Origin: Quercus robur
Lineage: Eukaryota > Streptophyta > Magnoliopsida > Fagales > Fagaceae
Reading direction: 5' to 3'
Length of the DNA stretch: 64,000 nucleotides
Assembly (NCBI RefSeq): GCF_932294415.1
Contig: NC_065535.1
Coordinates: forward strand, 9,295,282 to 9,359,281
The notes below the pieces were generated by a model. It was given only the letters and a program-made list of their open reading frames with translations. It did no database searches and had not been told where the DNA came from. Each line of letters opens with the position of its first letter. Within the stretch, counting starts at the first letter, position 1. Made by a program: the position numbers and the translations under genes. Of this stretch, positions 3,255 through 33,326 are shown one piece after another.

Positions 3255-4140
3255 ATGGCGGGAATGCTTGGCGCCAAAACCCGCGAAACTCCATTTTTGG
3301 TGGCAATCCCTCTATTTAAACCCAACCCATATTCTGCTCGGTCCCTAAAACTCAGCTTTTGCAAATACCCATTTCTCAACCGTTCCTTCTCTACAGTCCT
3401 CACCATGGCTCAGCCAGATCTTCAAAATCACAGCCCCGAAATCAAAGAACCATCGCTGAAGATCCCAAAGCTTGGCCAAAACGGCGTCGCTGCTGAAATC
3501 TCGAAGGACCCCATTTCACTAGTCAGAGTGAAAAAGCTTTCTGAGAAAGCTGTTTTACCTTCCAGAGGCTCTCCTCTCTCTGCTGGCTACGATCTCTCCA
3601 GGTATATATATATATATATATATACACACACATATAATCCACAATATTTTCAAATTTTCTTCATCCAAATAAAGAAAAAAGAAAAAATTGTTTATGGGGG
3701 TTTTTATGATTTGTGCAGTGCAACGGAGACTAAAGTACCAGCAAGAGGAAAAGCACTGGTTCCAACCGATCTGAGCATTGCAATCCCTGAAGGAACTTAC
3801 GCTCGTGTTGGTAAATTCTCACTCTCCTGTGTCTTAAAGGTGTTATTGAGTGTTTTTTTGGAGTTTTAGTGAAATGGGTATTTGTGATTATGTAGCGCCA
3901 AGGTCTGGATTGGCGTGGAAGCACTCGATCGATGTGGGTGCAGGTGTGATCGATGCTGACTACAGGGGTCCAGTTGGGGTTATACTGTTTAACCATTCGG
4001 ATGTTGATTTTGAGGTGAAAGTGGGTGATAGGATTGCACAGTTGATTATTGAGAAGATCTTGACACCTGATGTGATCGAGGTTGAGGATTTGGACGCCAC
4101 GGTTAGAGGCGAGGGTGGGTTCGGGTCTACTGGCGTATGA
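3255..4140 (+). CDS. DUT: Deoxyuridine 5'-triphosphate nucleotidohydrolase (dUTPase)
   Basis: Hydrolyses dUTP to dUMP and pyrophosphate, keeping uracil out of DNA and feeding dTMP synthesis; the enzyme is a homotrimer. Exons are 3255-3601, 3719-3810 and 3896-4140, joined at GT..AG introns to give 227 aa. All five trimeric dUTPase motifs are present: AGYDLSS (spans intron 1), [19 protein letters not shown] with the catalytic Asp, RIAQLIIE, and the C-terminal [10 protein letters not shown] arm. Two starts are possible: Met1, giving a Ser/Arg/Lys-rich leader like an organelle transit peptide, or Met51 at 3405 in a better context (caccATGGC), giving a 177-aa form near the usual cytosolic plant size. 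A TA/CA microsatellite sits directly after the intron 1 donor. Its 3' half is duplicated downstream (9005-9757). Confidence 0.93.
3603..3634 (+). repeat. TA/CA microsatellite at dUTPase intron 1 donor
   Basis: About 11 TA units followed by CA units begin one base into intron 1. The reading frame carries on through it ([11 protein letters not shown]), which is an artefact of the repeat and not coding. Confidence 0.85.
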
Positions 4141-4442
4141 GCGAGCTGCTTTGCTATTAGCAACGGTGCCATTACTCCTGCTTTCGTTTTCTTAGGGATT
4201 AGATTTTGGATCAGTGACTTGTTTGATGTTGTGGTCTGTGAGTAATTATGTCGAACGGTTAGTGAGCAAGTTGTACTGATATTGCTTAATGATATTTTCA
4301 ATGGAATTTAAGAAGCCTTATTCTGTAAATTAGTGTGTTCATTAAGCTTTCTTGTGATGTATACACACAATTCGTGGTATGCTATTGAACAGCAGAGCAC
4401 AGATGAACATAATAAAGTTGAAACATGGGCCATGTGCCTACA
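4141..4442 (+). other. dUTPase 3' flank (presumed 3' UTR)
   Basis: The sequence after the stop matches the flank of the second dUTPase copy almost base for base up to CATGGGCCATGTGCCTACA at about 4440 (compare 9757). Beyond that point the first copy switches to PGI sequence. An AATAAA-like word (AATAAAG) occurs near 4410. Confidence 0.6.
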
Positions 4443-5706
4443 TAATACGGTTTCTCAGTTGTGGAGCAGTAAGTGACTTATAACTTCCTTTATTTTTGCA
4501 AGCATTTCATCTCTTTTGGGTTCTTGGGAACACTTCCGAATATCATGACACATATTTTTTGCAACACTGCAGTAGGCATTACTGATTAGGTAGTACTTTA
4601 TTATGTGTTCTTTTGTTTGAGGAAAATATATGCAGCTTCATGTTTTAGAACAAGAATGGAGTGTAAGAGAGTTCTTCTTTATCATGAATCGAAAACCTCA
4701 CAAGCTCTTGACAGAATATCAAGTAATACTTCTTAAAAAGTAGAATTTTAGTATTCCAATCATTCAAGTCTCAAGTAAATTATCTGCATTTATTTTAAAA
4801 TGTTGACATGATTTTGGTGTTTACTTGAATAAAGTGTTGTCTTATTAAAGGTTCTTAAAGGGAGCCTCAAGCATTGATCAACATTTCTATTCAGCACCAC
4901 ACGAGAAAAATACAGCGGTAAGTGGCCTAATGTCCCAGACTTTTAATCGATTTATAGTCAGGTGTCACCCACTGGGTATATCATAGGATGATAATGGCAA
5001 TTAAGAATCTGGCTAGGCTTCAGATTTCAGAATCAACCAGTGCTTTAATGTATCTCATCAAAGAGGAAAATCTCTTCCATTATAAGCATTGCACTCTTTT
5101 GGGTTAGGCTATTTGTCTGAATCCCTCAACTCCCGAGATGGATCCATTTAGGGGAATGGGGCTTACATTATCCTGATGATCTTCCAGAAGCTAAATTTAA
5201 CATTGCACTAGATAACTGATGACATGTTTTATAACATTGTGTTGGTGCTTCAGGTGCTTTTAGGTTCGTTGAGCATATGGAATGTTTCATTTTTTGGGTA
5301 TCCGGCAAGAGGAGGCACTTAGCGTCTGCTCAAGACTTTATTTTCAGCTGCCGCTTAAGCATATTCTTATGATGTCTGTTTACTACCTGTTCAATAACAC
5401 TGAGACTCTTGGTATTCCTCCAGGCCATATTACCTTATTCCCAAGCCCTGGAGAAGTTTGCCCCACGCATTCAACAGGCATGTATACCACAGCATTCTGT
5501 TTGTAAATTTTTTTTCAAGGATCTGCTTTTTGAATGTTTGCATACCTTCTTCATTTAATAAATTCAGGCTAGCATGGAAAGTAATGGCAAGGGTGTCTCA
5601 ATTGATGTGGTCCTACCTTTTGAGGCTGGTGAAATTGGCTTTGGTGAGCCAGGAACAAATGGTCTGCACAGCTTCTACCAACTAATTCACCAGGTGATCT
5701 AAGTGT

Positions 5707-5905
5707 GCATTTGCGTAGCGGCAGGCGTGCGCATTTTTTTCCTGGGTCTTATGCACTGTTCACAGACCAGCAAGTATGGGAAAACGCGGCAATAACTTTA
5801 AAATTGGGTCCCACAGGCATTATTTATAGTTTAAAAATTATTTTGCTATAATGTTTTTAGCAATAAATTTTCAGTTTTCAGCAATAAACGGTATCCAAAC
5901 AGATC
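5707..5905. mobile_element. hAT-like MITE in the PGI copy
   Basis: An 8-bp direct repeat CTAAGTGT flanks the 199-bp insert (5699-5706 and 5906-5913). The uninterrupted site is seen in the parent PGI intron near 45.38 kb. Ends are imperfect inverted repeats (ATTTGCGTAGCG against GTTTGGATACCG). An 8-bp duplication is the mark of the hAT superfamily. No coding capacity. Confidence 0.8.
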
Positions 5906-6533
5906 CTAAGTGTTCTTTTAAACAATGATCATAAAATTATGTTAATAATTGCATGAATGCTTATTAAAATTTCTATTATCATTTACAATAATTTCTTGAA
6001 TTTTTATATACTGTTTCTCTTATGATGTTATTTTAACTATATAGGGAATGTCATGGGGTCTAATAAATTGAAGTTCTGTTTTTGGGAGATTGTAAATCTT
6101 TTGGTGCTGCTCTGATTCATGCCTTGAGTATTTGAGTTTTACTACTTTATTTAATGAAATTATTTGTTCTAAAATAAATAATAATAATAATAATAAAAGG
6201 GCCGGTACTAAGTGGTAAAATTCAAAGTAACCATCTTTTAACATGTAGTCATGTGTGCAATTGTATGCCTAGTATGTATTTTCTGTCTGACTTTTAACCA
6301 ATAAATCATAATCAATAGAGCTCTAAATCCTGCCATAAGCATGGAAGTGCGCCACTCTTAGTTTTGATGGCACACTCAATTTCCAAGAGTAAATAAAAAC
6401 TTTTTATTTATTGGTCAAGAGTGAATCAAAACTTAGCACCAGTGGAAACATTAATTTCTCAGATGTGTATCCACTTATGCCGAATATGCTTAATGTGTTT
6501 TCAGTTTTCACATGCACAAGAGTGCATGCAGGT

Positions 6534-7263
6534 AGGGGGATGTGTTCTTTCATTGAGTTTTTGTATTCCTCTAACCCAAGGAGTGAGGGAGATGATACTT
6601 TGACTTGGAAGTTTACTAAGACGGGGGTGTTTAATGTTTGCTCTTACTATAAGTTGCTGCCTGGCCCTCTCACTGAGGTTTTTCCTTGGGAGTGTATTTG
6701 GTGTGCAAAGGTGCCTAAACGGGTATCTTTCTTTTTACGGACGGCAGCTAGGGATGGGATACTCACTATTGATAATTTAGTTAAAGAGAGGTCAATCCTT
6801 GGTTAATAGATGTTGTTTATGTTGTTGTGATGGGGAAATTGTGGATCATTTTCTACTCCATTGTAAGCTTTCTCATGCATTATGGAGTGCAATTTTTGAG
6901 GTATTCAGGATCCATTGGGTAATGCCAAAGTCAGTTTGCTCTCTCCTCTTTGCTTGGAGAAACTGGTTTGGAAAACATCTGTCAACCATATGGAATATGG
7001 TTGGACGGAACGTAATATACGCATCTTTGAAGACAATGAGAGACCCTTAGATCTTTTAAAAGCTCTTCTCTTTAGCACTTTGTTTCAGTGGGCGCATGTT
7101 TGGGGTTTTACGAATTGTATTTCCAGTTCAGCATTCGTACACTCAATTAGATTAAGTTTTTGATGTATTTTTTCCTTGATTAGAATGTTCACCATCGTGA
7201 ACTTGTTCAATTTTTGAATAAAAGTTTTATTACCTATCCAAAAAAAATAATAATATAAAATAA
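6534..7263 (+). mobile_element. 5'-truncated LINE (zf-RVT region and 3' end)
   Basis: Flanked by a 15-bp target duplication AGAGTGCATGCAGGT (6519-6533 and 7264-7278). The empty site with one copy of this word is in the parent PGI intron near 44.79 kb. The translated part is the zinc-binding reverse-transcriptase region of plant LINEs (LTWKFTKTGVFNV.SYYKLL, WCAKVPKRVSFFLRTAARDGILTIDNL, RCCLCCCDGEIVDHFLLHC), broken by a stop near 6805 (TAA after ILG). It ends with TTACCTATCC and an A-rich tail. Dead on arrival through 5' truncation. Confidence 0.88.
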
Positions 7264-7622
7264 AGAGTGCATGCAGGTGTTGATTCATTCCAGCATCCAG
7301 ATTTTAGGAGTTGTAGACTTGTAGTGTTTGCCAACCTGTATCTAATTGCCGTGGAATTCTTGTAGTAGTTTAATGTTTACTTGTCATGTATTGGCTATAA
7401 AGCCCTGCTTTATGCTTGCAAATCCAATAATGTCTTTTTTTTTCGGTGATGGAGATGATTGATCGTGACTTCCTGTTGATTCTTAAGTCATCTGTGGAAT
7501 GTACTAGATCTGATTGCAAACGCCAATATGCACAAATCAATTGATGAATTTGAATAGTGAACTTGTACAAAGACAATAAAGATAAATATGAACAAACTTG
7601 TGCAACTATAATTATTTGATAC

Positions 7623-8754
7623 TGTTGTAGTTTTTTGGGATAGGTAGATAATGGGGGAGGTAGTGTTTGAACCAAACATGGGACAAATGTCTTGTTTAGA
7701 AGGGTAGTGGGTTCACTGGCACAAAAGGTAGGTACAAAGGTCTTGTTTAGAAGGGTTAAATTTAAGCTCTCCAAAAATTGGATGAAATCATAATATCTCA
7801 GAAGTGATTGTCATTGCCACTCTGAGCATTTGCATCTCCTGCAGAAGTTTATAATTTCTGTTCAAATTTGCCACTGATGGGTCAGCAAGGCCAAAAAGGT
7901 CCCTTCAGTAAAAGTGAAGATAACTATACATTGTTTCAAAGAATGAAATAAATATGTAATGGATGGACATAACTATGGATTTTTTTTAAAGGTTTTTCAA
8001 TATCGTTTAATATTTTTATTAGTCCTTTTTAAGGATGTGACTACTATCTTGATCAACGTATCCCCACCTTTGTTTTCTTTTTTTGATAAGTAACTTTTAC
8101 ATTCAGATTGTAGTATAAAAATTGAACTTTTTCATATGAAAAGGAACATGTAGTGCTGGGCTTTGAGGGGTTCCTATAAGGGCTATTTTTCCATAGTCAA
8201 GCTTTTTTGGAGTGATAAAGTGCCTCAAAAGGTTGCATTCTTTACATCGACAGCTTTGGATAGAATTTTAAGTTTTTAACAGTAGATAATCTTTGGAAGC
8301 ATTATTTAGTGATCATTGACTGGTGTTGTATGTGCAAGAATAGCAGGGAATCAGTTGATCATCTTTTACTTCATTGCATGGTGGCACAAGATATTTGTTT
8401 CATCTTTACTTTATTTGAATTTTCTTGGATTATGCCAATGACAGTGGCTCAGGTGCTGCTGGTGCGAAGGGAGATTTCATTGTCACAGAAGCTCTAAAGT
8501 TTGGAATGCAGCATGACCGTGTCTTGTGGATGATTTGGGGTAAACAAAATGGTCGAACTTTTGATTACGTTGAACATCCAAACAACAAATCAAACAATGA
8601 TTATTAAGATGTTTGTATAATTGGATGATTGTTTTAGGAATATTCCTTGTTCTTTCTTAGAATTCCTAGATAGCCTAAACTTGACTCTGTAATTTTCTTA
8701 AGGTATCTTGTTCTGTTTCTTTTAATAAAATTATTTTGATATATATAAAAATGT
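7623..8754 (+). mobile_element. Composite insert in the PGI copy, including a second LINE fragment
   Basis: The parent intron runs straight through where this copy holds about 1.1 kb of extra DNA. The right part (about 8160-8750) is a LINE zf-RVT fragment (WCCMCKNSRESVDHLLLHC, IMPMTVAQVLLVRREISL) flanked by TGTAGTGCTGGG and TGTAGTGCCGGG as a probable target duplication. The left part (7623-8150) has GTCTTGTTTAGAAGGGT twice (7688 and 7740) and looks like a further small insertion, possibly SINE-like on the minus strand. Exact joints are less clear than for the 6534 LINE. Confidence 0.6.
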
Positions 8755-9004
8755 AGTGCCGGGTGGTAGTATTTTTACCATGGAATGTGTTTGTCATCTC
8801 TTGAGTTACACATAACTAACTTCAAATTATGATGTCTTATAATCTGTAAGTGTGTTAAATGATTTCCTGGAACTTTCAGGGACGTGTTATTCCTTGTGAT
8901 TTTATTGGTGTTGTGAAGAATCAGCAACCTGTTTACCTGAAAGGTATCTCACACAATCACATTTTTTTGGCTGATGGCTTGTTTGAAGGTTATCTGATTG
9001 TGGG

Positions 9005-9757
9005 TTAAATTGTTTATGGGTTTTTTTTATGATTTGTGCAGTGCAACGGAGACTAAAGTACCAGCGCACTGGTTCCAACCAATCTGAGCATTGCAATCCC
9101 TGAAGGAACTTATGCTCGTGTTGGTAATTTCTCTCTCTCCTTTGTCCTTTTTAAGTGTTAAAGATGTTATTTAGTGTTTTTTGGAGTTTTAGTGAAATGG
9201 GTATTTGTGATTATGTAGTGCCAAGGTCTGGGTTGGCGTGGAAGCTATCGATTGATGTGGGTGCGGGTGTGATCGATGCTGACTACAGGGGTCCAGTTGG
9301 GGTTACACTGTTTAACCATTCGGATGTTGATTTTGAGGTGAAAGTGGGTGATGGATTGCACAGTTGATTATTGAGAAGATCGTGACACCTGATGTGATCG
9401 AGGTTGAGGATTTGGACGCCATGGTTAGAGGCGAGGGTGGGTTCGGGTCTACTGGCGTACGAGCAAGCTGCTTTGCTATTAGCAACGGTGCCATTACTCC
9501 TGCCTTCGTTTTCTTAGGGATTAGATTTAGGATCAGTGACTTGTATATTGTGGTCAGTGAGTAATTATGTCGAATGTTTAGTGAGCAAGTTGTACTGATA
9601 TTGCCTTATGATATTTTCAATGGAATTTAAGAAGCTTTATTCTGTAAATTAGTGTGTTCATTAAGCTTTCTTGTGATATACATGCATTTCGTGGTATTGA
9701 ACAGCAGAGCACAGATGAACATAATAAAGTTGAAACATGGGCCAAGTGCCTACACAA
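9005..9757 (+). pseudogene. Second dUTPase copy, exons 2-3 and 3' flank only
   Basis: Starts in sequence equal to dUTPase intron 1 (ATTGTTTATGGG), then exon 2 (9042-9123), intron 2, exon 3 (9219 to about 9459) and the same 3' flank. There is no exon 1, so motif 1 and any start are missing. Exon 2 has lost about 10 bases (AAGAGGAAAA in the intact copy) and exon 3 has lost 2 bases at GTGATAGGATT, both shifting frame, and the stop codon TGA has become CGA. Remaining substitutions are few, so it is fairly young. It directly follows the PGI segment. Confidence 0.92.
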
Positions 9758-10065
9758 CTGCAGGTTAGGTTCAAACATGAGTTTGTACAGATTAGGTTTT
9801 TCACTCTTTCAAGTGAAACTGTGAGAGTTTATGATTATTTTCTGTCCTGAGTATCCTGAACCAAAATTATTGACCACAATTCAAAGTAGTCTTCAACTAT
9901 TAAAGCTCCCCAAAAGCTTGGCAATGCCATGCCAGTAGCCTAGTACTAGACTGCAATATAATTTACATGGATTTGAGGAAGTTGCTGTAATTTGAAAGAA
10001 ATCTTTAACATATATACACACACAAGCACACAATATGATACTAATCTTTAGACTGAGAGCGGAAA
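9758..10065. other. Intergenic spacer
   Basis: This is the sequence that presumably followed dUTPase before the duplication. No coding exon is recognised. A possible first exon of the FZR-like gene would be expected here or upstream but is not seen. Confidence 0.4.
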
Positions 10066-12893
10066 TGAGGTGTATTCGAGGTTGTTGAGAGCAGAACTTT
10101 TTGGATCTGATTTTGGGTCTTTTTCTAAGGCAGGTTCTGGTCACCTATGAGTCCTAGCAAGAACATGTTGAGGTTCAAGACTGAGAGCTTGGGGCCTAGT
10201 TCTCCTTACTCGCCTTATGATATGATAATGGGTTTTCTTCACAGACTTCCACGCCTCCCAAGCCACCTCGCAAGGTCCCCAAGACTCCCCATAAGGTATG
10301 CATTGTATGCTCTTTCTGGTTCTTTTCTTTTTTGCTTGCAGGAGAAATTTGGTATGGGGCAAAACTAACTTAAAGCACAATTAAATTTAAGGATTTGACT
10401 TATTAGCTAATGCTACCACATGATTGAATTTAATTTGAGAATCTAAGGTACAACAATTAAGGAATTGTAACTAAGTTTTGCCCTTTTCTATCTTTCAATT
10501 TCTATGAAGGAAAAACCAAGTTCAAGCAAATTGTTTGTGTTAGGCTCAGTTAATATTTGAAAAATTCTCAGCATTTTACTTAGCAGCCAAGCTGACAGTT
10601 GTTTCATAGACTAAGATGTAAGAGCAAATGAACTAACTGAATCTCATCTGAGAGAGAGAGAGCAAACTTTGAATGAATTATAAAGAGAATAATGTAGTGA
10701 TATATATAGCAATAAAAAATGTGGTTGATAATTGAAGTTAAATTGTGGCAGGTTCTAATGCTCCATCACTTCAAGATGACTTTTACTTGAACCTAGTGGA
10801 TTGGTCGTCGCAAAATGTCCCTGCAGTTGGATTGGGAACCTGTATTTACCTATGGAGTTCATCAAACAGCAAAGTAAGATTGGTATTACTTTGTTGGGAA
10901 CAAATTGAAGTAGTGTTTGGTATGGGTTGTGTGTAACATTCTATTATGCTATTTTTTTCTCAGGTAACAAAGTTGTGTGATTTGGGACCTAATGATGGGT
11001 GTGTGTTCTGTCCAATGGACCCGAGAGGGTTCATACATTTCCATTGATACAAATCTTGGTCAAGTTCAGGTAGCTAGTCCTCTAAAATTGCATATGATCC
11101 TTTAATTATCACATCTTCTTTGCAGGTTAGTATCTTCAGTTAGTCTCTTATAGAGTTGAAATTTAGCTAGCATTTTGGTCTACTGTTGTAGGTCTTGGAT
11201 GGGACACAGTGCAAGAAAGTCCGAACCATGGGTGGGCATCAAACAAGAACAGGGGTTTAGGCATGGAATTCGTGCACATTGGCCTCCCGGAAGCCAGGGA
11301 TTGCAACATACTTCAACATGATCTTCGGGTTCAAAATGACTTTGTTAGCAAGCTAAATGGCCACAAGTCTGAGGTAAAGCCATTGAAAATTTCCTAATAA
11401 CTCTTTTCATCAACTGAAAGCCCTTAGTCCCACCTACTTGGAGCTTCCTATACATATCTTTTATTGTCATTTAGCTTTATAATCCAACATTATTGATATG
11501 CTATCTTTAACATGGACCACAACTTAATGGGAGAAAACAGAAAGTTATAGGGAAAATGGCAGTAATCTTAACCTTTCCTTAACTTCAATGCCACAGGTAT
11601 GTGGGCTAAAATGGTCCCATGATGACAGGGAACTTGCATCTTGTGGCAATGATAATCGGGTATTCATCACTAACTTTTAGTTGTTTCTTCTTCTTTGGAA
11701 GCTTTGTGTCTAGTCAATAACTTATCTGATTTCTTGCTGGTGAGCCTAGCTATTGGTCTGGAACCAGCATTCTCAGCAACCAGCTTTGAGACTAACAGAG
11801 CACACAGCTGCTGCCAAGACCATTGCTTGGTCACCCCACCAAAGTAGCCTTCTTGCATCTGGCGGTGGAACAGCTGATAGATGTATTCACTTCTGGAACA
11901 CCACAAACTGCCACCAACTGAACAGCATTGACACGGGGAGCCAGGTAGTTCTTTTCAATTCTTTATGCATCAGAATACCAGTTGATTTTCGTAAGGGGGA
12001 AAAAAATTCTGCTGGCCTTTGTAAATGCCCATAGGCAACTTATGATTTCTAATAAGGGCCTAGAGGGGAAGTGAGTGCTACTGCCAATTCAAACAACATA
12101 CGATCTTTTTTTTTTTTTTTTTATTGATGAATAACAACAAATGTTCCTGTCATGTGGAAATTTGTTCTTGAATAAATTCATGTGCTGAAGGAATACTTAA
12201 ATAGAGTTTGCTGCTTAACCTGCAGGTTTGCAATCTTGCATGGAGTAAAAATGTGAATGAATTAGTAAGCACTCATGGGTATTCCCAGAATCAAATTATG
12301 GTGTGGAAGTATCCATCAATGACAAAGGTATTAGCTTTTTAGTCATAACATTTTCATTTCCATCATAATCTGTCAACCTTCGTCTAAAGTAACCTTTGAA
12401 ATTATAGACAACTAGACCTGTCTGTTTTTTTTTTTTTTTTATTATTGAAACTTTGGGATTGATTGATAGGTTGCAACTCTAACGGGACATAGTATGCGAG
12501 TGCTTTACATTGCAATATCACCCGATGGTCAGTTACTTCATCATTTCCTTTAAAGCATTTTTCATAGCATGTGAACTTGATTGGCAGCACAGGAGTAACA
12601 CCAAACATAGATGCAAATATATATTATAATGCACATACAAATTTTTTAATTTGAACTGAACTGCCTCCTGCAGACTATAGTTACTGGTGCAGGTGATGAA
12701 ACCCTCCGGTTTTGGAATCCCTTCCCATCCATGAAAACACCAGTAAGCATGACCATTGCAGACCATATTTGATAATAATCAAACTGCACTTTGCTATCTC
12801 TTTCTAATTCACTTCTCTTGTTTACTACTGTGTTTTCAGACACCAGTGAGAGATACAGATCTTTGGTCTCTTGGGCGAACCCAAATTCGATGA
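10066..12893 (+). pseudogene. FIZZY-RELATED (CCS52/CDH1-type) WD40 gene, decayed
   Basis: The family activates the anaphase-promoting complex by binding substrates through WD40 repeats. Recognisable exon pieces in order: VYSRLLRAELFGSDFG (10070), KNMLRFKTE (10160), PPKPPRKVPKTPHK (10250-10295), LQDDFYLNLVDWSSQN (10770), VTKLCDLGPND (10965), KKVRTMGGHQTRTG (11215), VCGLKWSHDDRELAS (11597), [19 protein letters not shown] to DTGSQ (11750-11943), [20 protein letters not shown] (12226), VATLTGHSMRVLYIAISPDG (12471), QTIVTGAGDETLRFWN (12673) and the C-terminal LWSLGRTQIR with stop at 12893, which carries the IR tail. Introns are kept, so this is a genomic and not a retro copy. Frame breaks are seen near 10140, 10995 and 11250, and no start exon is found. 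The 3' half looks clean. Confidence 0.85.
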
Positions 12894-13544
12894 TATTCTT
12901 TGCACACGTGAATATGTTTTGGCTATGAAGATGGAAAGTAAAGGGCTAGTTTATACTGTATATGAAACTGTAATTTATTTGTAATCAGCTGAGATGTACT
13001 GAGAAATTGGCAATGATGTATTCTATTTTTTTCCCCCCTTCTGCTATATATAGTTTTGAATCTGTAAAGTGTTTCCTTGTTTATAATACTTGGACATCAA
13101 TATAACACTAGATAATTTATACTCTCTCTCTCTCTCTAGCCTAATGTCATTTTATTATTATCTGTGGAATCAAAGCTTTTAGTAATTTCTATATTAGCTT
13201 TTGTATGTGTGATACTCATAGAAGCTAATAGAAGGTTTGAACGACTGCACACAACAAGAAACAATTCTTAAACAGGTCACAATGACTTGTTTATCAATTA
13301 ATGAAATTTCAGTTTCCAACTTGAAAATACAAACACCAGGCTTACTACATCCTAGAGTACACAGTAAGTAAAAGTAAAAAATGAAGCTCATAAAATACAT
13401 TGCAGGTTGCAAAGAATTGAATATTTTCCTACATTGGCAATAGTCATGGCCTCATTGTGTTTTTCCCTGTAAACTATTTTGCCCAACTATTGTTGATTTC
13501 TGGTGGCCTGAGTCTGGCGCAAGAAGCCAATTATATGGAACAAA
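12894..13544. other. Intergenic, 3' flanks of two converging genes
   Basis: Holds the 3' flank of the FZR-like pseudogene and the end of the FtsJ-like gene on the other strand. A (CT)n run lies at about 13122-13137. No gene recognised. Confidence 0.45.
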
Positions 13545-16500
13545 TTATCTTTGTGCTTGCTGCAACCCTTGACATATCAGATAAATCTCTCTGGATGAAG
13601 ATCTTGTGGCTTTTGGCCTCAACCATGATGCTTTTTTAAACAGTGGTTTGCATATCTGGCTGAATTCTGTGAAGGCAAAAGCCAGAAAGAAAAGCAAGAA
13701 TTATATCCAACCTTTCAGCTAGAAAAGAACTAGATAGAGTAGATACTGCATTTATAAAATACAATCCAACCTTTCACATCTTCACTCTCTAAAAGCTTTA
13801 TGACAAGCTGGCCCCGTTAGCAGTACACCCTCATTCTCTAAATCAGAAGCTGAACTGTCCATCTCTTTTTCCTTCTGAACATTATCATCCAGAGAATGTA
13901 ATGTTGCTCTACCAACAGCCAAATCAAGTGCTTGCATTCCCAACTCAACTGATAAAGCTGCATCCCTAGTTGTGATTCCAGAAACCAAGGGACACATATC
14001 CGAGAGAATCACAGAAAACTGTTTCTGCTGCACAGTACGAAAACGAAGTCATATCTGTATCCCTACACTAGTGAAAGAGAGAGACCCCCAACATTCGTGA
14101 TTTCAGACCTATCAGTTTGGTGGGGAGTTTATATAAAATCTTGACCAAGGTTTTGGCTAATAGATTGAAAGTGGTGTTAGATCAACTGATATCTGAATCT
14201 CAGAATAGTTTTGTGGGAGGTAGGTAGATCCTTGATTCAATTCTCATTGCCAATAAGTGTGTTGATAGCATAATGAAGAGTAAGATTCCAGGAGTGATTT
14301 GTAAGTTAGATATTGAGAAAGCTTATGACAATGTGAATTGGGAGGCACTTCTGAAGTTGTTGAAGAAAATGGGCTTTGGGGAGAAATGGTGTAGCTGGAT
14401 TCGAACCTGTATCTCTACAATGCAGTTTTCTATGTTGGTAAATGGGACCCTGGCTGACTTCTTTGGTAGCTCTAGAGGTTTGAGACAAAGGGATCTGTTG
14501 TCTCCCTTTTTATTTTTAGTTATAATGGAGGTGTTTAGTACGATGGTGAAGCGTATGGAGGGGGCAGGTTTACTTAGTGGTTTTAGGGTGGAAGGTAGGA
14601 GGGGCAGAGGGGAAAGTGTTTCACATTTGCTGTTCGCGGATGATACTATATTGTTTTGTGATGCAGAGGTGGAGCAAGTCCTGCATGTTCAATTGCTGTT
14701 ACTTTGTTTTCAGGCTGTGACTGGTTTAAAGGTTAATGGAGTTAAAAGTGAAATGGTTCATATAGGGGAGGTAAATAATGTGCAGGCTTTGGCAGAGATA
14801 TTAGGTTGTAGGGTTGGGGCCTTGCCAATGACTTATCTTGGTATGCCGCTGGGGGCATCCCATAAGTCCCCCTCTATTTGGAATCCTATTTTGGAAAAAG
14901 TCGATCGGAAGCTAGCTAGGTGGAAGAAGTTGTATTTGTCAAAAGGAGGTAGGTTGACATTGCTTAAAAGCACACTATCCAGCCTTCCCACATATTTTTT
15001 ATCTCTATTCACCATCTCTACACATGTGGCAAACAAAATTGAGAAGCTCCAAAGGGATTTCTTGTGGGGAGACCCTAAGACTCATTTATTGGGATGGGAT
15101 AAGGTGTGTCTGCCTATTGCTAATGGTAGCCTAGGTATTAGAAAATTAACCACTTTCAATAAAGCCTTGCTAGGAAAGTGGCTTTGGCGTTTTGGGAAAG
15201 AGGAGAATAGGCTTTGGAGGAGGGTGGTACCTTTGAAATTTGGGGAAGAATTGGGAGGGGGGGGGGGGGGGGTGGACCTCTAAGTTGAGAAGGGGTGCTC
15301 ATGGTTATGGTTTGTGGAGAAGTATCAGGAAAGGCCGGGAAATTTTCAACAAAAATGTCCAGTATAAGGTTGGGGTGGGGGATAGAGTGAAATTTTGAAC
15401 AGGCAAGTGGTGTGGAGATCTCTCTCCAACTGGCTTTTCCAATCTTGTACAATTTTCCTGCAAATAGAGAGGCTTCTATAGAATCATCTTTAATATGTCA
15501 AGGAGCAGGGGATGGGAGAACTTGGGATGTTCGTTTCAATCGAGGTCCTAATGATTGGGAGGCAGATGTGGTGGTTGATTTCTTTCGACTCTTGGCAGCC
15601 TATTTACCTACAGGGACTGATGGTGATCGGTTGAGATGGAGGTTGACAAAAAATGGGGATTTTACTGTCCGCTCATTTTATCTTAAGTTACATGGTTCTT
15701 CTTCCGTTGTTTTTCCATGGAAAGGTATTTGAAAGGTTAAGGCTCCCCGGCGTGTCTCTTTCTTTGTTTGGACAGCATGGGATAGGATCCTCACGGGTGA
15801 TAACTTATGGCTTAGAGGTTTTGATTTTGTTGACTGGTGCATTATGTGTCGTTGCTGTGGTGAGACAGTGGATCATTTGTTGTTAAATTGTAGAAGGGCT
15901 TATTGACTGTGGTGTTTTGTCTATCGGATTTTTGGCATTTCATGGGTCCCCTCATGTACGGTGTCAGACTTTCCTTTTAGTTGGTGGAATTGGTTGGGGA
16001 AGCATTCATCTTACATTTGGAACTTAGTTTCGTTGTGTTTGATGTGGTGTATTTGGAAGGAACGCAATCGGCGAACATTTGAGGATTTGGATAGGTCTAA
16101 GGACCAAATGCTTGCTCTCTTTTCTAGTTCCCTGTTTGACTGGGCTAGGGTTTGGGGACTCATATCTAGTGACTCTCTTCCTCTTTTCCTTAGCTCTCTT
16201 TCTTTGTAATTATTGTTTTTTTTTTTGTTGTAATCATGCTGGTGTTTTTTGCATCTAGCTGTTTTTTTTTTTTTTAATATATTTTTTCTTACCTATCAAA
16301 AAAAAAAAGAGAGAGACCCCCAAATGGTTTGCCTTGAGAGAGACTAAGATCTATCAAGTTAGATTATATACATAAAGATCCCAGTCTATCTAAATCTTAA
16401 GATAAGATGAACACTCATCTCTGAAGTGCTTTTGTTTCAAAGGTTCAAACATAATAAAGCAAACAAGGTTAAGGGCCAATCTGTATTAAAACAAGAAGCA

Positions 16501-18074
16501 GAAAAAAACCTAGCATACATTGTGTCAAGGAATCAACAACTTGTAGGGAATTAACCTGAATTCCCAACCTGTGAGAAACACAAAAAAAATAGAGAAAACA
16601 CACGCAAAAAAAACAATCACACGTACAAGACAATATTTACGTAGTTCGGCAATTTGTCTACGTCCACAAAGTTGCAGGGATTTCACTATTATCAGGAAAA
16701 AACACAAAGTGCAACTACAGTTTCTCCTCTCTCTCAAAAACACGACAACAACAAATCTTAATCACAATATTGCGTCTTTTACATCCTGCGCACAGGATTC
16801 ATGGACTAAGTCTCAGTAAATCTCTCATTAAAAATCATGCAACATTATTCAGATTGGGGTCTGGTCATCAACCGGATTAAACACAACTAGGCTCCATAAA
16901 ACCAACACAACTAGACCACGTTGCAAAGTAATTAAGCTTTCAAATATAGTGAACCCAGGGTGATGAACCGTTGGATTAATTAAGCCATTCTGCTTTGGGT
17001 AAATAAAAATTGAATTTACAAAGAAATCATCTATAGAAAGCTCATCCATTCCATCTTTATCTACTAGCCCTTTGATGGGAAACATAAGGATCCAATAGAT
17101 TATGGAACTAATAAAAACAAGAGCAAATGCAGGGAGGGATGGTTTCAAACAAGGGACATCGAAAAGGTTGAACCAGGAAGCAAGTAATGAACCTAAGTAA
17201 CACCCTCCTCAATAAAGCTAGGACCACAGTTAAGGTTTTACTTCTTTCTTGGCAGTGTGAGAATGGCAAAGGGTGTTATGGACCTCAGATACCCCCAAAA
17301 GAAAATAGCTCAAAAATCAATGAATAATCAGACAATATGTCAAATTAAAATACATTTAGAATGTACCTGAGGAGAGAGAGCCCTAACTTGGTGTTTAGGC
17401 AACTTCATGACATCAGCACAAACAGTTTTAACCCTTGCATCACAGTGACGAGGAGGAACCTTCACCTTCTGTTCTGCATATACCATTATTTCACAAAATC
17501 AAGATCAAAATCACAATCATTTCTTTCAATTTCCTTTACCCATCAGAAACAACTAAAGAATTAATGAATATTGAAGAATAAATAAATAAAAACAAAACCT
17601 TGAGATCAATGCCCACAACAATCCCACCAGTTTTAAGAGGACCCAAACTCTGGCAAGCTACCTACAACAAAAAAATAAAAGGCAGAACAAAACATCATGA
17701 AAAGCAATAAAATAAAAATAAAATAAAAAAATAAAAACAAAAACAAAAAACAAAGACACCCTTTAAAACCCATAAAAAAAAAAAAAAAAAATTGTTTTTC
17801 AAATGGAAAAACCTGAAGCCAAGCACCAGGGGCGCAACCGAGGTCGAGAACTGATGAACCAGACTTTTATCAGCTTGTACTGCTTCTGCATCTGCAAAAG
17901 CTGTTCTTTCCCAAACAGAGAAAGATATCAGATGGGTGTGTGAGTGTAGAAAAAGGAACAGAAAATTTTAAGAGAGAGAGAGAAAGGTAGTAGTACCTTG
18001 AAGGCAGAGAGAGCAACATAGCCAAGGCGTTGAGCTTCTCTGTAGAAGAAATCTGGTGCTCCTGAACCATTCAT
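13545..18074 (-). pseudogene. FtsJ/RlmE-type rRNA 2'-O-methyltransferase gene, frame-broken
   Basis: The family methylates the ribose of a uridine in large-subunit rRNA using SAM. Exons on the minus strand: 18074-17997 (MNGSGAPDFFYREAQRLGY.SAFK), 17900-17813 (LLQMQKQYKLIK, then SSVLDLGCAPGAWLQ, the SAM-binding motif), 17661-17599 (VACQSLGPLKTGGIVVGIDLK), 17468-17367 (VKVPPRHCDARVKTVCADV), about 14032-13770 (FSVILSDMCPLVSGITT) and 13666-13545 (CKPLFKKASWLRPKATRS, REIYLICQGLQ). The K-D-K-E catalytic tetrad can be traced (SAFK, SDMCP, VIKLLE, REIY). Two indels break the frame: one extra A in the AAAA run of exon 2 near 17870, and an indel at GGGGCC in exon 5 near 13813. Both sit in short homopolymers, so an assembly error is possible, but two in one gene favour a pseudogene. 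Intron 4 holds a 2.2-kb LINE. Confidence 0.82.
14092..16308 (+). mobile_element. 5'-truncated LINE in the FtsJ-like gene intron
   Basis: A 15-bp target duplication GAGAGAGACCCCCAA flanks it (14077-14091 and 16309-16323). The element begins inside reverse transcriptase ([21 protein letters not shown]), continues through [24 protein letters not shown] and the catalytic [11 protein letters not shown], and is open for 336 codons at 14273-15283. Further on, in other frames, are the zf-RVT part ([20 protein letters not shown] region, 15412-15890) and a C-terminal piece to 16209. The 3' end is TTCTTACCTATC plus A tail. It lies opposite to the host gene. It has at least a stop near 14227 and several frame breaks, including one after a G run at 15258-15271, so it is inactive. 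Confidence 0.9.
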
Positions 18075-18363
18075 CTCTCTCTTTGACTCTGTGTTTTTTT
18101 CTTCTTTTTTTTTTAATTTCCAAAAACCCCTTTTGAGGTTTAAGGGTTTTGCAGTTTGAGGAATTTTCCATTGCCGGGATTTGACCCCGGGTATCCTAAC
18201 CGGGCTGGACTACAATGGATTAGTTGGTACTGTGACTTAACATCATCAATTAAGAGGCGATGAAAAGTGTTTGTTAAGTCACGTAATTCAACCTTATTAT
18301 AAACAATATGCTTAACTGGTTTTTAATGTCCTTTCATTCTAACTGCCTATAAAATAAAACCCA
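18075..18363. other. Upstream region of the FtsJ-like gene
   Basis: Presumed promoter side of the minus-strand methyltransferase gene. Apart from the tRNA-like remnant at 18167-18219 no feature stands out. Confidence 0.35.
18167..18219 (-). pseudogene. tRNA-Glu-derived remnant lacking the anticodon arm
   Basis: The minus strand gives TCCATTGTAGTCCAG, a D-arm-like GGTTAGGATA, then directly a T-arm-like GGGGTCAAATCCCGG and CAATGGA. Compared with the intact tRNA-Glu at 50591-50661, the anticodon stem and loop are gone (53 against 71 bases). Acceptor ends still pair. It cannot decode. Confidence 0.75.
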
Positions 18364-18615
18364 CACTTGTTTTAATTTGGATTTAGACAAGATAGACCAT
18401 TTCACACTTAATTACAAAACAAAATTCTCAAAAGTAGAAAGATTTATTTTTTATTTTTAGATAAGTAGGAGGAGGTTCTATACCAATTACACTTGTTTTA
18501 ATTTGGATTTAGACAAGATAGACCATTTCACACTTAATTACAAAACAAAATTCTCAAAAGTAGAAAGATTTATTTTTTATTTTTAGATAAGTAGGAGGAG
18601 GTTCTATACCAATTA
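18364..18615 (+). repeat. Tandem duplication, two 126-bp units
   Basis: CACTTGTTTTAATTTGG begins at 18364 and again at 18490, and the units match nearly perfectly up to CCAATTACA. The full-length LINE inserted just 3' of the second unit. Confidence 0.9.
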
Positions 18616-19008
18616 CAACACAAGGAGAATGTAAAAGACTATGGAAATGGATCCACTCTGCTTGCAGTGGTGGCTCTCTCCATAGCCCGTCTATGGTCCT
18701 TCTCCACTGTATGTGGCTTCTTTCCAACCTTCCACACACAATCCACTTGCTTTTCCAAACTTTTCACAAATCATCCTCGTCTTTTACCCAAGCTTTCTTT
18801 AACCTTTCCTCCAACTAATCCCACCTTTTCCTTTTCCCACATCTGGAAAATATCAACCCATAATCCAACCTTTTCTCATCCGACAAACATCAACACAACC
18901 CATTTTCTCAAACAATTTCAAACAGCTATATCACTAAATACCCTCAATCTCCCTTGCTTTCCCCGTTATCTGCGTTTTCATCCCAACATTTTATCTTCCC
19001 ATCCAATC

Positions 19009-20445
19009 ATGGAAACCAATACCAACAAACCAGAACTTAATATAATAACCCACAACCAAAAACATCCCCACTACTCAAATTCATCCCTTTCTCTCCCAGC
19101 AAAACCTGAGGCAGCCAAAGAACTGTCATCTCTCGGTCTAGCTGGTCGTTTAATAGCACGCAAAACCATCAACAGAAACAAAATTCGAGCTATCCTATCT
19201 AAAGCTTGGAAAACAACCAGTGGTGTCTCAGTGAATGATGTGGGAGACAACCTTTTCCTTTTCAGGTTCAATTTTGAAGATGACAGGCAAACCATTCTTG
19301 ATCTTGCCCCTTGGTTTGTTGAAGGATTTCTTCTGGTCCTCAAACCTTGCAATAGCCTCACCCCTATTTGCAACATTGACTTCACTTGGTCACCATTTTG
19401 GGTCCAAGTTCACAACCTCCCTCCTGACCGGATGTACCAAGAAAATGCAGACACCATTGGGAACCAACTGGGTAAGCTTCTGGACTCTGAACTCCCAGTC
19501 AAGGGCAGCCTTTGTTGGAACAAATTCCTTCGCCTCAAAGTCCAGATTGATGTCAATGAACCACTCCTTTGTGGTTTCTATCTAGACTGCCATCCAAAAC
19601 CAGATATGTGGATAGATTTCAAATATGAGAAACTTCAAGATTTTTGTTTTGGATGTGGCAAACTTGGGCATGCCAGAAGCCAGTGTACAGCGCCGATCCA
19701 CCACAAAAGTCATCTGCACCACTTTCATCTTGGCCCCCGCGGATTTGGCCCTTGGATCAAAGCTGGCAACTCCGGCCTCAAGGCCCTCACCTGGCTGGAA
19801 TTTCTGAAAGAGGAGGCTGCTGATTCTAGCCCTCCTTTTTCTGACACAAGCAATACCCAGGTCAGTCCCTTACCCCAAGAAACAAACCAAAACACTCCAC
19901 CTACCTCCCTCAAGTCAAATCCCCAAGCCACCCTTCCCGTAATTTTAGCATCAACTCCTAACACCACCCACCCAAATCCCATATCCCCATCCCCTCATCC
20001 CCATTTCCCGACCACAAAGCTCTTGCCAAATCCCATCACCTCCCACAATCTCTCTGATAACACGTTACAGGCTGAAATATCTGAAAACTCTCACCCTCCT
20101 ACCCCTTTACCTAACATAACCCACCTAGACACTTGTATCCATAAGCCAACAATAACAATGGGCCCTTCTCTTAACCGAACCCAACATCAACTTGAGCCCA
20201 CAAAAAGCCCACAATCTATCCTAGAGTCTCTAATCCCCTCTCTTGGGCCTAACATCCTTGACTCTAATCCATTAGGATCATGGCTCAAAGCTCCTGAAGC
20301 CCAATCTCGTGTCCTCCAATGGATCACTTTTGTCAACCTCAATGATAAACCATCATCACCCATCATCCAGCCCAACTTCTCATGCCCTGACCTCTCTTCC
20401 CTCCAAATTCAAATTCCTATGGATACCTCCACAGCTACCAAATGA
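19009..20445 (+). CDS. LINE ORF1 protein (DUF4283 plus CCHC zinc knuckle)
   Basis: 478 aa from the first in-frame ATG at 19009 (METNTNKPELN); the open frame extends upstream to 18667 but without any ATG, so those codons are probably leader. Residues about 35-120 are the DUF4283 region typical of plant LINE ORF1 (SLGLAGRLIARKTINRNKI, FLFRFNFEDDRQTILDLAPW). A zinc knuckle CFGCGKLGHARSQC lies at about 213-226 (C-x2-C-x4-H-x4-C). The C-terminal half is a Pro/Ser/Thr/Asn-rich low-complexity tail. The family binds the element's RNA to form the ribonucleoprotein. ORF2 follows 253 bp downstream. Confidence 0.85.
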   Translation: METNTNKPELNIITHNQKHPHYSNSSLSLPAKPEAAKELSSLGLAGRLIARKTINRNKIRAILSKAWKTTSGVSVNDVGDNLFLFRFNFEDDRQTILDLAPWFVEGFLLVLKPCNSLTPICNIDFTWSPFWVQVHNLPPDRMYQENADTIGNQLGKLLDSELPVKGSLCWNKFLRLKVQIDVNEPLLCGFYLDCHPKPDMWIDFKYEKLQDFCFGCGKLGHARSQCTAPIHHKSHLHHFHLGPRGFGPWIKAGNSGLKALTWLEFLKEEAADSSPPFSDTSNTQVSPLPQETNQNTPPTSLKSNPQATLPVILASTPNTTHPNPISPSPHPHFPTTKLLPNPITSHNLSDNTLQAEISENSHPPTPLPNITHLDTCIHKPTITMGPSLNRTQHQLEPTKSPQSILESLIPSLGPNILDSNPLGSWLKAPEAQSRVLQWITFVNLNDKPSSPIIQPNFSCPDLSSLQIQIPMDTSTATK

Positions 20446-20698
20446 AAACTCCCTTCATCCCCAGAAAATTCCAGCAACAAAAAGTTGAAGTTAAAACTTC
20501 TACCACCTCCATCCTGCCCTCCTTCACCCGAGCATATCCCCCTCTTCCATCTTGGTTCTTACCCCCAGAATATTAAAGCCAAACCCAAATGGAAGACATT
20601 GGCTAGAACCAAAAACCATTTCCAATCCACCCATTCATTTTCAAATCTGACTTTACCTATGGCTGAGGAGGCGGGCCTACCCATGCCCCCAACCCCCC

Positions 20699-23600
20699 AT
20701 GAAGCTTCTTTCTTGGAATTGTCGTGGCTTTGCCCGGGCTGCGGCAATCCAAAAATTCAAGGGCCCTTTGAGAGATGTCAACCCCGATTGCATCTTTCTT
20801 TCTGAAACAAAAATTCCTAAACGTAAAATTTCTCCTCTTCTTACCCAACTTGGTTTTGTAAACATTGTCTATATCAATCCAATTCGAAAAGCTGGTGGCC
20901 TTTGTTTTGCTTGGAAAAATGGTTTGGATATTGAACCTCTCTACTCCAACAACAACCTTATCAACGTCATCATCTTCTCTGATCCCCCAAACACTCCCTG
21001 GATGCTTTCCCTTGTATATGGTCCCCCATACTCTTCTCTCAAAGCCAACTTTTGGAACAATCTTGAAACCACATTAAACTCTTTTGGTGGAGCTTGGGTG
21101 GGGATTGGTGATTTCAATTGCATCCTCTCCCAGTCAGAAAAACAGGGGGGTCGCCCTTTTGCCTCATCCTCCGATGGCGGTTTCTCTGGCTTCATCACCA
21201 ACAATGGTCTCATCGACCTTGGTTTTCAAGGTAATAAATTCACCTGGTCAGATAAACGTTCTGTTGGTACCATTAAACAGCGTTTAGACAGAGCAATTGC
21301 AAATGACCAGTGGAGGCTTCTTTTCCCGCGTGCCAACCTCCTTCACCATCCCATTATTGCCTCTGATCATGCTCCGATCTTTCTCTGTACCATGGGAGAA
21401 GCCCGAAACACACCTAAACCATTCTGTTTTGAATCAATGTGGACCCGTGACCCCTCCAGTTTTGCTGTTGTCAAATCTGCCTGGTCCAAACAGTTCATTG
21501 GCACTTCAGCCTTTTGCCTTTCCCAAAAAATAAAAGAATCCAAATCCTCCTTGAAAAAATGGAACAAAGATGTCTTCGGCAACATCCACTTTAAAATCAA
21601 GACTCTCACTGCTCAAATAAACACAATCCAAGACCTTCCTCCATCTGCTTCCAACCTTTCCTCAGAAAACTCTCTTTTGTGTGAGCTCAATGAATGCATG
21701 ATTCGTGAAGATATGCATTGGCGTCAAAAATCACGTAATCAATGGCTGACCTCTACTAACCTCAATACCAGATTTTTCCATCTATCCACCATTATCCGAA
21801 GAAGGAAGAATGCAATTGATTTTATAAAAGATGAAAATGGTTCTTGGTTGTCAGGACGCCATCTGGTTAGTGATTGTTTCATCAATTACTATAAAAATCT
21901 TTTCACCTCCCAACATACCAATCCAAGCCACCATATCGATCTCTCAAATATCATTCCTCACTCTATATCCTCTGAAGAAAATGAAGCCTTATGTGCCATC
22001 CCTTCTGATGATGAAATAAAATCTATTGCTTTCAGCTTCGCATCTTCCAAATCCCCTAGTCCCGATGGTATGTCTGCCATTTTTTACAAATCCTATTGGG
22101 GTACTGTTGGCAAAGATGTCATCGCCATGGTTCAATCTTTTTTCGCCAGTGGTCTTATGTTAAAAGAAATGAACCACACATTCATCACTCTTATCCCCAA
22201 GACCCCTAACCCATCCACTGTAAATAACTTCCGCCCAATAAGCCTTTGCAATGTTTCTTACAAAATAATCTCCAAAACCTTAGCCAATCGCCTAAAAATT
22301 CTCCTTCCTAAACTCATCACTCCATGGCAAGCTGCCTCTGTTCCTGGTAGAAACATCCAAGACAACTCAATCATTGCTCATGAAATTTTCCACACCCTTC
22401 ATCAAAAACGCACAGGCACTTCTGGTATGGCAGCCCTAAACCTTGACTTGGAAAAAGCCTTTGACAAGGTCGAATGGCCTTTTTTGCTCTCAATCTTCAA
22501 GCATTTTGGTTTCTCAGACAAATGGATTCAAATGATTAGTCAATGCATCTCTACGCCATCCTTCTCCATCTTAATAAATGGCTCTCCAGCAGGTTTTTTC
22601 ACCTCTAACCGTGGCATCCGTCAAGGTGATCCCATCTCTCCCTTCCTCTTTATTTTGGTTACTGATGTTTTGTCTAGATTGTTTCTTCAGAAAGAGGCTG
22701 ACGGTTCTCTCCAAGGCATCAAAATTGCAAGAAATTGCCCCCCAATCTCGCATCTTATGTTTGTTGATGATCTTGTGGTATTTTCTTGGGCTAACCATGA
22801 TGACCTTGCGACTGTCCAATCTTGCTTAACTCAATTTCAGAATTGGTCTGGGCTTTCCATCAACAAGAGGAAATCGGCAATAACTTTTAGTCGAAATGTT
22901 TCTCCATCATGCAAAATCTCTCTATGCAACCTGATTGGTTTGAACCAACCAACTTCCAAGAATTTCTACCTTGGGCTTCCCACTCATATCCAAAGAGGTC
23001 ACCAAGCTCAGTTCAACACCATTTTGGAAAAAATCAACAGCAGAATTTCTGGTTGGAAAGCAAAGATTTTATCACAAGCTGCCAAAGCTACTCTTATAAA
23101 GTCTGTGCTATCCTCAATACCATCTTATTGGATGTCATCATTTAAGCTTCCAAAGTCTATTTGCAGTAAAATTGATGCCAGACTCAGAGATTTTTTCTGG
23201 GGTTTTACTGATTCCGGTCACCATATCTATCCAAAAGCGTGGGATTCTTTATGCAAACCAAAATCTGCTGGGGGTTTGGGCTTCCGTCGTGCTCATGACA
23301 TCAACAATGCACTAATATCCAAACTTGGGTGGATTATTGCATCTAGTGCAGATAAACCTTGGGCCAACCTCCTCCAATCCAAATACCTTCGTGGTCGTCC
23401 CTTCCTAACCTCTACCCTCCAACAAAACTCATCCTACATTTGGAAAGGCATTCACAAAAGCATTCCTTTGATAAAAAAAGGCTACTGCTACCTCATTGGA
23501 TCAGGTTCTTCGGTGAACATTTGGCATGACCCATGGATTCCCTCACTTCCATCCTTCACCCCAACCCACATAACCTTGCTGCCAGACCAACAATTGGTTT

Positions 23601-24817: not shown

Positions 24818-24873
24818 TAATACATCATCTTACTTATCAAAAAAAAAAAAAAAAAAAAAAGACTATGGAAATG

Positions 24874-28443: not shown

Positions 28444-28636
28444 CAGTTCTCAAGTACATCAACCAGATGCTTATGGAAGAAGATATGGAAGAGAAGGACT
28501 ACATGCTTCAGGGGTCTGAAGTACTTGAGGCTGCTGAAAAATCATTATATGAGCTTCTTGGAGAGAAGTATCCACCCTCCCCTGATAATGTTCAGCCTTA
28601 TTATGTGGATCAAAACCATGAAAGCTCTGATGAATA
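28309..28636. repeat. 135-bp inverted duplication of the GRAS N-terminal region
   Basis: The left arm 28309-28443 is the reverse complement of 28502-28636, with no mismatch that I could find, around a 58-bp spacer. The spacer plus right arm reads on the plus strand as KYINQMLMEEDMEEKDY followed by the same LQGSEVLEAAEKSLYELLG sequence as the minus-strand arm, so it carries the piece missing from the pseudogene. A transcript across it would fold into a long hairpin. Confidence 0.93.
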
Positions 28637-28781
28637 GTATGCTTTACTCGAACTTGACCTGCCTTTTTTTCTCTCTCTCTCTCTCTCTCTCTCATCTCTC
28701 TTTCATTCACAAATCACTCTCACACTCGTATTTGCAAATCAATTTTGTTGTTCTTGCAGGAACCTTGTTTATTATTGCATA

Positions 28782-32614: not shown

Positions 32615-33326
32615 TGTAAGGTCACGTTTTGCAACCCAAGCCCAAGATGTATGGGATCTTGGACCAGTGAGCCCGGTACAATAAATTTATAGAGAGTGGG
32701 ACGAAGAGTTAGGTTTTAGTGCATGGGCAACGGCTAACATGGCCTTTATCACGGTGAAGCCAGGATGAACAGGGTTTGTCATTGAGGTTTGGTCCTCGGC
32801 ATAACCCGAGGAGCTTTTTTTGGAGTCTCTTAAGTGATAGGGGTTCTAGCCCCCCTTTTTTGCTTCCCTTCACCCTCTTTTATAATAGTTTCCTTCCTCC
32901 TGAATTGGGTTCCTAGTGCTGATACTTGTCCCATCAGCCTTTCCCCCAAGTTGTTGGAAGTGGTTGTAAAGTGTAGGGAAGCATGGTTATGTCAGGTACA
33001 AAGCCTTGAATGCAATAATGGCAGCGGAGTGGTTGTAAAGGCAAAGAAGCATGGCTATGTCAGGTGCAAGGCACTGAATACAATAGTGACAGCTTTTCCT
33101 TTAGACATTTCTATTTTCCCTGTTGTCCTTTTTTGTTTTAGTACTTTTCCTGTTCCATGGAGTGACCCGGAGTGCCTCTCTCAGTGATAAGCCATTCCCT
33201 TTGTCCTCGGCCATATATGGCCGAGAAAGGCTTCTTCGCATGGCCAAGGAGGGGTTCTTCCTTGGACTGGGCCCTTGACCCAATGTAGATATTGACATGG
33301 GTTTCTCGGTCTTTTACTCCCCATCA
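32615..33326 (-). repeat. LTR (3' copy in element orientation)
   Basis: Pairs with 37282-37992; ends TG..CA on the minus strand. Carries CCTCGGC/CCGAGGA words and a TTTTATAATAG segment. Followed outward by the target duplication GATAC. Confidence 0.85.

Follow-up and report, generated by a model that had tools for sequence, protein, structure and literature searches.

A chain of copied patches beside an intact dUTPase gene in Quercus robur and its possible origin by serial template switching

The repetition of part of a dUTPase gene in Quercus robur, with an inverted piece of a PGI gene between the two copies, raises the question of whether a single event produced the arrangement and where that arrangement ends. 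The window analysed here is a stretch of 64,000 nt (GCF_932294415.1, NC_065535.1:9,295,282-9,359,281, forward strand; position 1 is its first letter). A preliminary description had explained the structure by one replication event, in which copying passed from DUT to PGI and back to DUT. Template switching of this kind fits the joints, but the second DUT copy (DUT') does not lead back to the native locus, and the chain continues into DNA of another contig (C37), located on a different chromosome, and into a fold-back of that DNA. We lean towards the reading that DUT/PGI/DUT' forms the left portion of a longer patch chain, produced by one repair or replication accident with serial template switching of the FoSTeS/MMBIR type.

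The patches, their order and orientation, their joints and their donors can be read directly along the window. The chain starts from DUT1 (3255-4140, + strand), which reads as an intact gene by its reading frame; exons 3255-3601, 3719-3809 and 3895-4140 are open across all three, and the Pfam dUTPase domain was matched in pieces. The repeated part of DUT1 (copy W1, 3685-4446, + strand) reaches the end of the left arm at 4446, which is 306 bp past the stop codon. As the preliminary description had proposed for the stretch from DUT intron 1 to the 3' flank, self-BLASTN finds 3685-4445 again in direct orientation at 9007-9757, with 91.2% identity over 773 columns (34 mismatches, 34 gap positions). 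A six-frame Pfam search of the left arm, covering the 10 kb that precede the window with E 0.001 as the limit, gave no match, and no function was seen for the patches beside DUT1.

Between the DUT copies lies the PGI patch (4444-8998, + strand), an inverted copy of 44143-46713 (- strand) inside the PGI gene. The expected alignment was obtained by self-BLASTN as five colinear pieces against the reverse strand of 46713-44143 (89.0-92.8% identity), and the whole-genome search gave the same donor. The patch starts and ends inside the gene, as had been stated, beginning within an exon and ending within an intron. Its length is about 2.5-2.6 kb without the insertions at 5707-5905, at 6534-7262 (+ strand; a LINE-like piece with a zf-RVT match and the repeat AAGAGTGCATGCAGGT on its flanks) and at 7623-8720 (+ strand; a weak zf-RVT match of 27.3 bits, just below the cut-off of 27.5). 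Insertions in the patches are absent from the donors and hence are regarded as later. Conversely, 71 bp present in the PGI parent at 46012-45942 are absent from the copy. The whole-genome search with the PGI segment, in which the best candidates were scored (here 34/34), returned 37 matches: one at the parent, five at the pieces of the window copy, and 31 at one short repeat (32-47 bases each).

The DUT' patch (copy W2; 9007-10048, + strand; about 1.04 kb) begins in DUT intron 1 and reaches 292 bp further than the point of the first cut. Its exons are broken by deletions of 10 bp and 1 bp, and its stop codon is altered. The proposal that this copy runs on into the original downstream DNA holds for those 292 bp only (block E, 9757-10048), after which come 10 bp of filler and the C37 copy. 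DUT' is hence a patch about 1 kb long, bordered by foreign DNA at both ends, and a simple tandem duplication with templated filler, in which the second copy would run into native downstream DNA, does not describe a locus where that DNA ends at 10048. The C37 patch (10059-28450, + strand) is a copy of C37:62187035 down to 62177800 (9.2 kb), broken by later insertions, and carries part of a CDC20/Fizzy-type gene and a GRAS gene. At 28450 the copy reverses onto itself, the fold-back patch (28441-28646, + strand; about 0.2 kb) being C37:62177746-62177951 from the opposite strand. C37 itself has no palindrome or fold-back at the matching place (62177000-62178300 tested). To the right of the fold-back, the stretch from 28647 to about 28982 had no match among the best 40 of 4842 candidates.

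Five joints were found along this order (DUT1, inverted PGI, DUT', C37, C37 fold-back). Four of them could be read to the base, and they contain either microhomology of 3-7 bp or filler of 8-10 bp. Joint 1 (4444-4446) has AAT common to DUT and PGI, or CAAT (4 bp) if base 4443 mutated later, as judged from the PGI parent and two DUT paralogues (A and B, below). Joint 2 (8999-9006) is an 8-bp filler, for which a source was sought and no convincing one found; a few common bases together with a short filler near 9000 had been anticipated. Joint 3 (10049-10058) is a 10-bp filler, and AGACTGAGAGC (10050-10060) occurs again at 10178 in the C37 copy, 128 bp further on, where present-day C37 keeps 10 of the 11 bases. 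The rough chance of such a recurrence is 7e-5 for one 11-mer within 150 nt, a figure uncorrected for the two fillers examined. Joint 4, from the C37 patch to the fold-back (near 28450), has ATGTAGT common to both C37 strands. No element ends or target-site duplications were seen at the joints read.

The paralogues A and B lie on the window's own chromosome, and in both of them DUT continues directly into its downstream DNA. They have neither the second DUT copy nor the PGI piece and supply the unrearranged DUT-to-E sequence, so that the joints become readable to the base; past E they go on into DNA common to both, not into C37. The single-event proposal had predicted that the same locus in related species and other haplotypes would hold either the whole structure or none of it, and these same-genome paralogues, which hold none of it, agree with this. 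A and B are possibly plain pre-insertion copies, but this is not accepted outright because W1 is nearer to them (13/648 differences from A, 11/648 from B) than to W2 (30/636). The all-or-none test is weaker than it first seemed, since recombination of the 750-bp DUT repeats could make a site look empty again, and no clean placement of A and B ahead of the event follows from the divergence data.

From this anatomy we infer replication-based synthesis and a common origin of all the patches. An end broken 306 bp past the DUT1 stop codon would have been extended on successive templates: the other strand of PGI about 40 kb off (about 2.6 kb), a DUT locus from intron 1 to the end of block E (1.04 kb), the C37 region (9.2 kb) and, for the fold-back, the other C37 strand within the same region (0.2 kb). 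Each switch would have relied on microhomology of 3-7 bp or else introduced a filler of 8-10 bp, and the extended end would finally have been joined to the DNA upstream of PGI. A single event is favoured by the patch order and orientation, by the presence of PGI only at parent and copy (the short-repeat matches apart), by the unrearranged DUT-to-E sequence of A and B, by the four joints, by the fold-back missing in C37 and by the repeated joint-3 filler. It is also favoured by the equal divergence of DUT'+E and C37 and by the fact that the DNA following E in A, at C2:9025330-9027400, is not resumed within the window, where it has two short weak matches only. For the whole chain a single event is probable, though short of proof; it is weakened by unequal patch divergence and a younger-looking left arm.

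The patches diverge from their sources by 4.65-6.63%. DUT'+E differs from A at 45/928 positions and the C37 copy from C37 at 415/8917 (4.65%), which are equal (P=0.81); against B the former gives 57/928 (P=0.052 against C37). The PGI copy differs more from its parent (164/2474, 6.63%) than the C37 copy does from C37 (P=1.2e-4), and divergence inside the C37 copy alone ranges from 2.98 to 6.7% (chi-square P=5e-5). This inequality between PGI and C37 would suit two events, namely a DUT-PGI-DUT' duplication formed in place, e.g. by staggered nicks with PGI fill-in, and a later independent cut at 10048 with joining of C37, each half being by itself a known kind of event. Such a history appears unlikely, since chance would have had to place the second cut within 292 bp of the earlier one, the distances of DUT'+E and C37 from their sources are equal, and the joints are all of one style. 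The left arm, at 3.1-3.25% from A (349/10746 changed), is far less diverged than the PGI copy is from its parent (P=3e-13), and by this measure the patches look older than DUT1 and the DNA upstream of it. The divergence is near-uniform, with a variance/mean of 1.3 over 21 windows of 500 columns, among which no gene-conversion patches appeared. Faster patch decay through methylated C was also considered and finds no support in the PGI spectrum (91 transitions, 73 transversions; 250 of the 349 left-arm changes are transitions).

These left-arm values and the private changes at 3795-4442 (W2 25, B 8, A 7, W1 2) would fit a stepwise origin, in which PGI, DUT' and C37 were joined first, and unequal or allelic recombination with an A-like DUT locus afterwards added or exchanged the left arm, which is younger and holds DUT1. 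We consider this distinctly unlikely: a newly joined arm would have put a DUT copy beside another DUT piece by chance, whereas an arm exchanged by homology leaves the first event as one chain; site 4373 weakly unites W1 with W2, and constraint on W1 as a gene shortens its branch. Very unlikely is a loss from A and B of PGI and one DUT copy, with the structure present in the common ancestor and the origin of the chain left aside. The patches do look older than the split of left arm and A, and 750-bp direct repeats favour such deletions. However, A and B contain no clear hybrid DUT (at 4207, 4228 and 4317 A has the W2 state and B the W1 state) and run past E into common DNA instead of C37. Block E differs from B (20/292) by more than the left arm does from A (P=0.0024), but not from A (12/292, P=0.4). 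Scarcely credible is transposon capture (Helitron, Pack-MULE or retrocopy) or assembly error. Reverse-transcriptase-like insertions do lie in and around the patches, but they are absent from the donors and hence later, the patch ends lie within exons and introns and carry microhomology or filler, and the copies retain introns; copies that differ by several per cent are unlike a recent misassembly. Serial template switching is the preferred reading for the patches. That the whole chain, including the left arm of at least 13.7 kb common with A, is one natural germline event with at least five template switches on two chromosomes is an improbable extension. If true, it would have placed the only intact dUTPase gene of the cluster beside PGI, and a small fixed relic would have become the working locus, A and B having decayed.

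The kind of event is already known; the readability here is unusual. Multi-template rearrangements are known mostly from tumours, patients and mutagenised lines, as far as the cited portions of the papers below go. In this old plant case the donors and two unrearranged-looking paralogues remain, so that joints are readable to the base and a single event is testable in relatives. A caution also follows: where there are repeats and neighbouring copies exchange sequence, the events can appear in an order other than the true one. FoSTeS/MMBIR and chromoanasynthesis, in the sections consulted (PMC6371609; PMC7407515; PMC8423247; PMC9911071), likewise involve reordered and reoriented copied segments from more than one chromosome with few-base microhomology or short insertions. 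For example, joints have microhomology of 2-5 bp (PMC7407515), or, in irradiated poplar, microhomology of 1-11 bp and insertions of 1-18 bp (PMC8423247). Serial copied segments are present here too, with the PGI, DUT and C37 donors all kept elsewhere and microhomology or short insertions at four of five joints. The plant cases in those sections are induced or mutant-derived, unlike the old chain of the window, which is apparently settled in a reference genome. Plant chromoanasynthesis proper is defined in the consulted text by at least 10 clustered rearrangements on one chromosome (PMC8423247), compared with five joints in the stretch examined. Repair-mediated duplication by capture of chromosomal DNA similarly copies genomic DNA into a break, with microhomology of 2-9 nt and filler of 1-68 nt (PMC2671141). 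The inserts reported in the part consulted are single, at most 619 bp and closely linked, whereas the patches of the window are several and reach 9.2 kb, with one taken from another contig and one that folds back. Tandem duplications that arise in plants through patch repair of adjacent nicks (PMC7971508, citing Vaughn and Bennetzen 2014 and Schiml 2016) resemble the DUT stretch present twice in direct orientation but differ, as outlined in that source, by the foreign DNA between the copies here and the second copy without native continuation. Gene fragments also serve as filler DNA in plant break repair (PMC3445842), much as a joint here is filled by a gene piece from elsewhere; compared with the cases in the consulted part of that paper, the window has three donors that follow one another, and neither insertion nor excision of a transposon was identified at its joints.

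The window lies at C2:9295282-9359281 of a genome (G000) of 786 Mb in 42 contigs, and negative coordinates denote DNA to its left. The DUT repeat and the inverted PGI repeat of the preliminary description were both borne out when the window was compared with itself, and the parent of the inverted piece (44143-46713, minus strand) does read as PGI, with a frame intact across the copied exons and 7e77 as its closest solved relative. The PGI copy (4444-8998) retains six exons, of which the first is truncated by the joint. Over 394 aligned bases it carries 24 substitutions; the splice donor that follows the third exon is broken, and one codon is lost. The dUTPase gene DUT1 (3255-4140, plus strand; copy W1) is intact, and the second window copy (W2, in patch DUT' at 9007-10048) has exons with 10-base and 1-base deletions and a changed stop codon.

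The second DUT copy had been thought to return to its native locus, which is not so; the patch lies between PGI and a copy of DNA from another contig, C37. The DNA 3' of it is original only in segment E (9757-10048), which is as in two paralogue loci, A and B, and gives way to the C37 copy from 10059. Among the best 40 of 169 candidates from a genome query with 9600-10500, E was matched only by the window itself and by A and B; from 10059 on, the match was with C37. Window 10059-28450 is colinear with C37:62187035 to 62177800, apart from window insertions absent from C37. The copy then reverses at 28450, as 28441-28646 corresponds to the opposite strand of C37:62177746-62177951 (6 of 206 bases differ; 97.1% identity). 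The window has an inverted repeat at 28300-28645; none was found in C37:62177000-62178300. C37 was regarded as the donor, since it has the more complete genes and no fold-back. By our reading of the C37 sequence, the copy starts in exon 1 of a CDC20/Fizzy-type gene. The exons are split, and single C37 frames score 144.9, 108.0 and 51.6 bits against that Pfam family, below its 200-bit cut-off; one C37 frame exceeds the WD40 family's own cut-off. A GRAS gene inside the copy has its domain open in C37 and one stop in the window, where the frame has ten further stops upstream of the domain.

Large insertions in the C37 copy (14094-16306 and 18313-24857) are absent at the corresponding C37 places, and the former overlaps a long reading frame (14228-15280) that we read as reverse-transcriptase-like. 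A second link to C37 is seen at 38591-39671, matched at C37:64.70-64.75 Mb (83-88%). Direct repeats of 709 bp (32615-33323 and 37282-37990; 92.7%) stand on either side of an array of ~80 bp units (34796-36964), and 32615-37990 resembles an LTR element that contains a tandem array. Another array (60505-61165; ~81 bp units, with a further piece at 62436-62577) is ~74% like it, on the opposite strand.

Searching the whole genome with DUT1 gave 41 matches (best 40 of 53 candidates). Besides W1 and W2, there are two close, unrearranged-looking paralogues on the same chromosome, namely A (C2:9024035-9025006; 96% against window 3460-4446) and B (C2:9138988-9139356 and 9141297-9141590; 98%); the remaining matches among those candidates are short or distant, including C39 at 76% and C5 at 56 bases. 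In A and B, DUT continues directly into the DNA found 3' of the second window copy, as far as 10048, and neither locus has a second DUT or PGI adjoining it. Exon 1 of A is disrupted by a ~4.9 kb element, whose terminal repeats are 97.06% identical over 374 columns and which comes with a duplicated GATCC. In B the 5' side is truncated and there is a ~1.9 kb insertion. The likeness of A to B reaches well past the DUT region at a substitution level of 0.4% to 11% by stretch, as if they were patchily homogenised. The likeness of the left arm (the DNA up to the first joint, DUT1 included) to A stops at window -12833 (A 9004913), and farther left the stretches compared are unlike.

Joints 1 and 2 agree with the few shared bases and short filler near 9000 described earlier. 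With A as reference, AAT is common to both sides of joint 1 (4444-4446), extended to CAAT if a later change at base 4443 is assumed, and eight bases at joint 2 (8999-9006) are assignable to neither side. The filler at joint 3 (10049-10058) is part of AGACTGAGAGC, which recurs at 10178 within the C37 copy and of which 10/11 bases are present in today's C37. At the fold-back turn, ATGTAGT is common to both C37 strands and the window has ATGCAGT. Serial patches with inverted and folded-back pieces are the pattern left by serial template switching. We infer one event from the joint style, the occurrence of the joints in a single row, and a divergence that is equal for DUT'+E from A (45/928) and for the C37 copy (415/8917; P=0.81), the latter amounting to 4.65%, with individual pieces at 2.98 to 6.7%.

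Some of the age data count against a single event. The PGI copy differs from its parent at 164/2474 sites (6.63%) and DUT'+E from B at 57/928 (6.14%); the left arm differs from A at 349/10746 (3.25%), or 423/13565 (3.12%) over a longer stretch. PGI divergence is 2.04-fold that of the left arm (P=3e-13). On these figures and the counts below, the patches appear to predate the separation of the left arm from A. Any of three histories would fit: the patches changed faster, A and B lost PGI via the DUT repeats, or the left arm was exchanged at a later time with DUT loci that were unrearranged. W1 and W2 differ at 33/731 sites over 3690-4442; their non-coding divergence (21/405) shows no difference from that of PGI (P=0.32). 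Among the 46 variable sites in 3795-4442, 25 are private to W2, 8 to B, 7 to A and 2 to W1, while three sites join W1 with B against W2 with A and one joins W1 with W2 against A with B. Thirteen changed amino acids were listed in the PGI exons and 12 polarised against 7e77, one being left out (first exon read out of frame); the derived state is the copy's for nine and the parent's for two, the last being ambiguous.

Earlier work has established both serial template switching and filler DNA (PMC6371609, PMC7407515, PMC8423247, PMC9911071, PMC3445842, PMC7971508, PMC2671141). The chain of DUT1, inverted PGI, DUT', C37 copy and C37 fold-back is best read as a well-preserved natural example of this established type of rearrangement.
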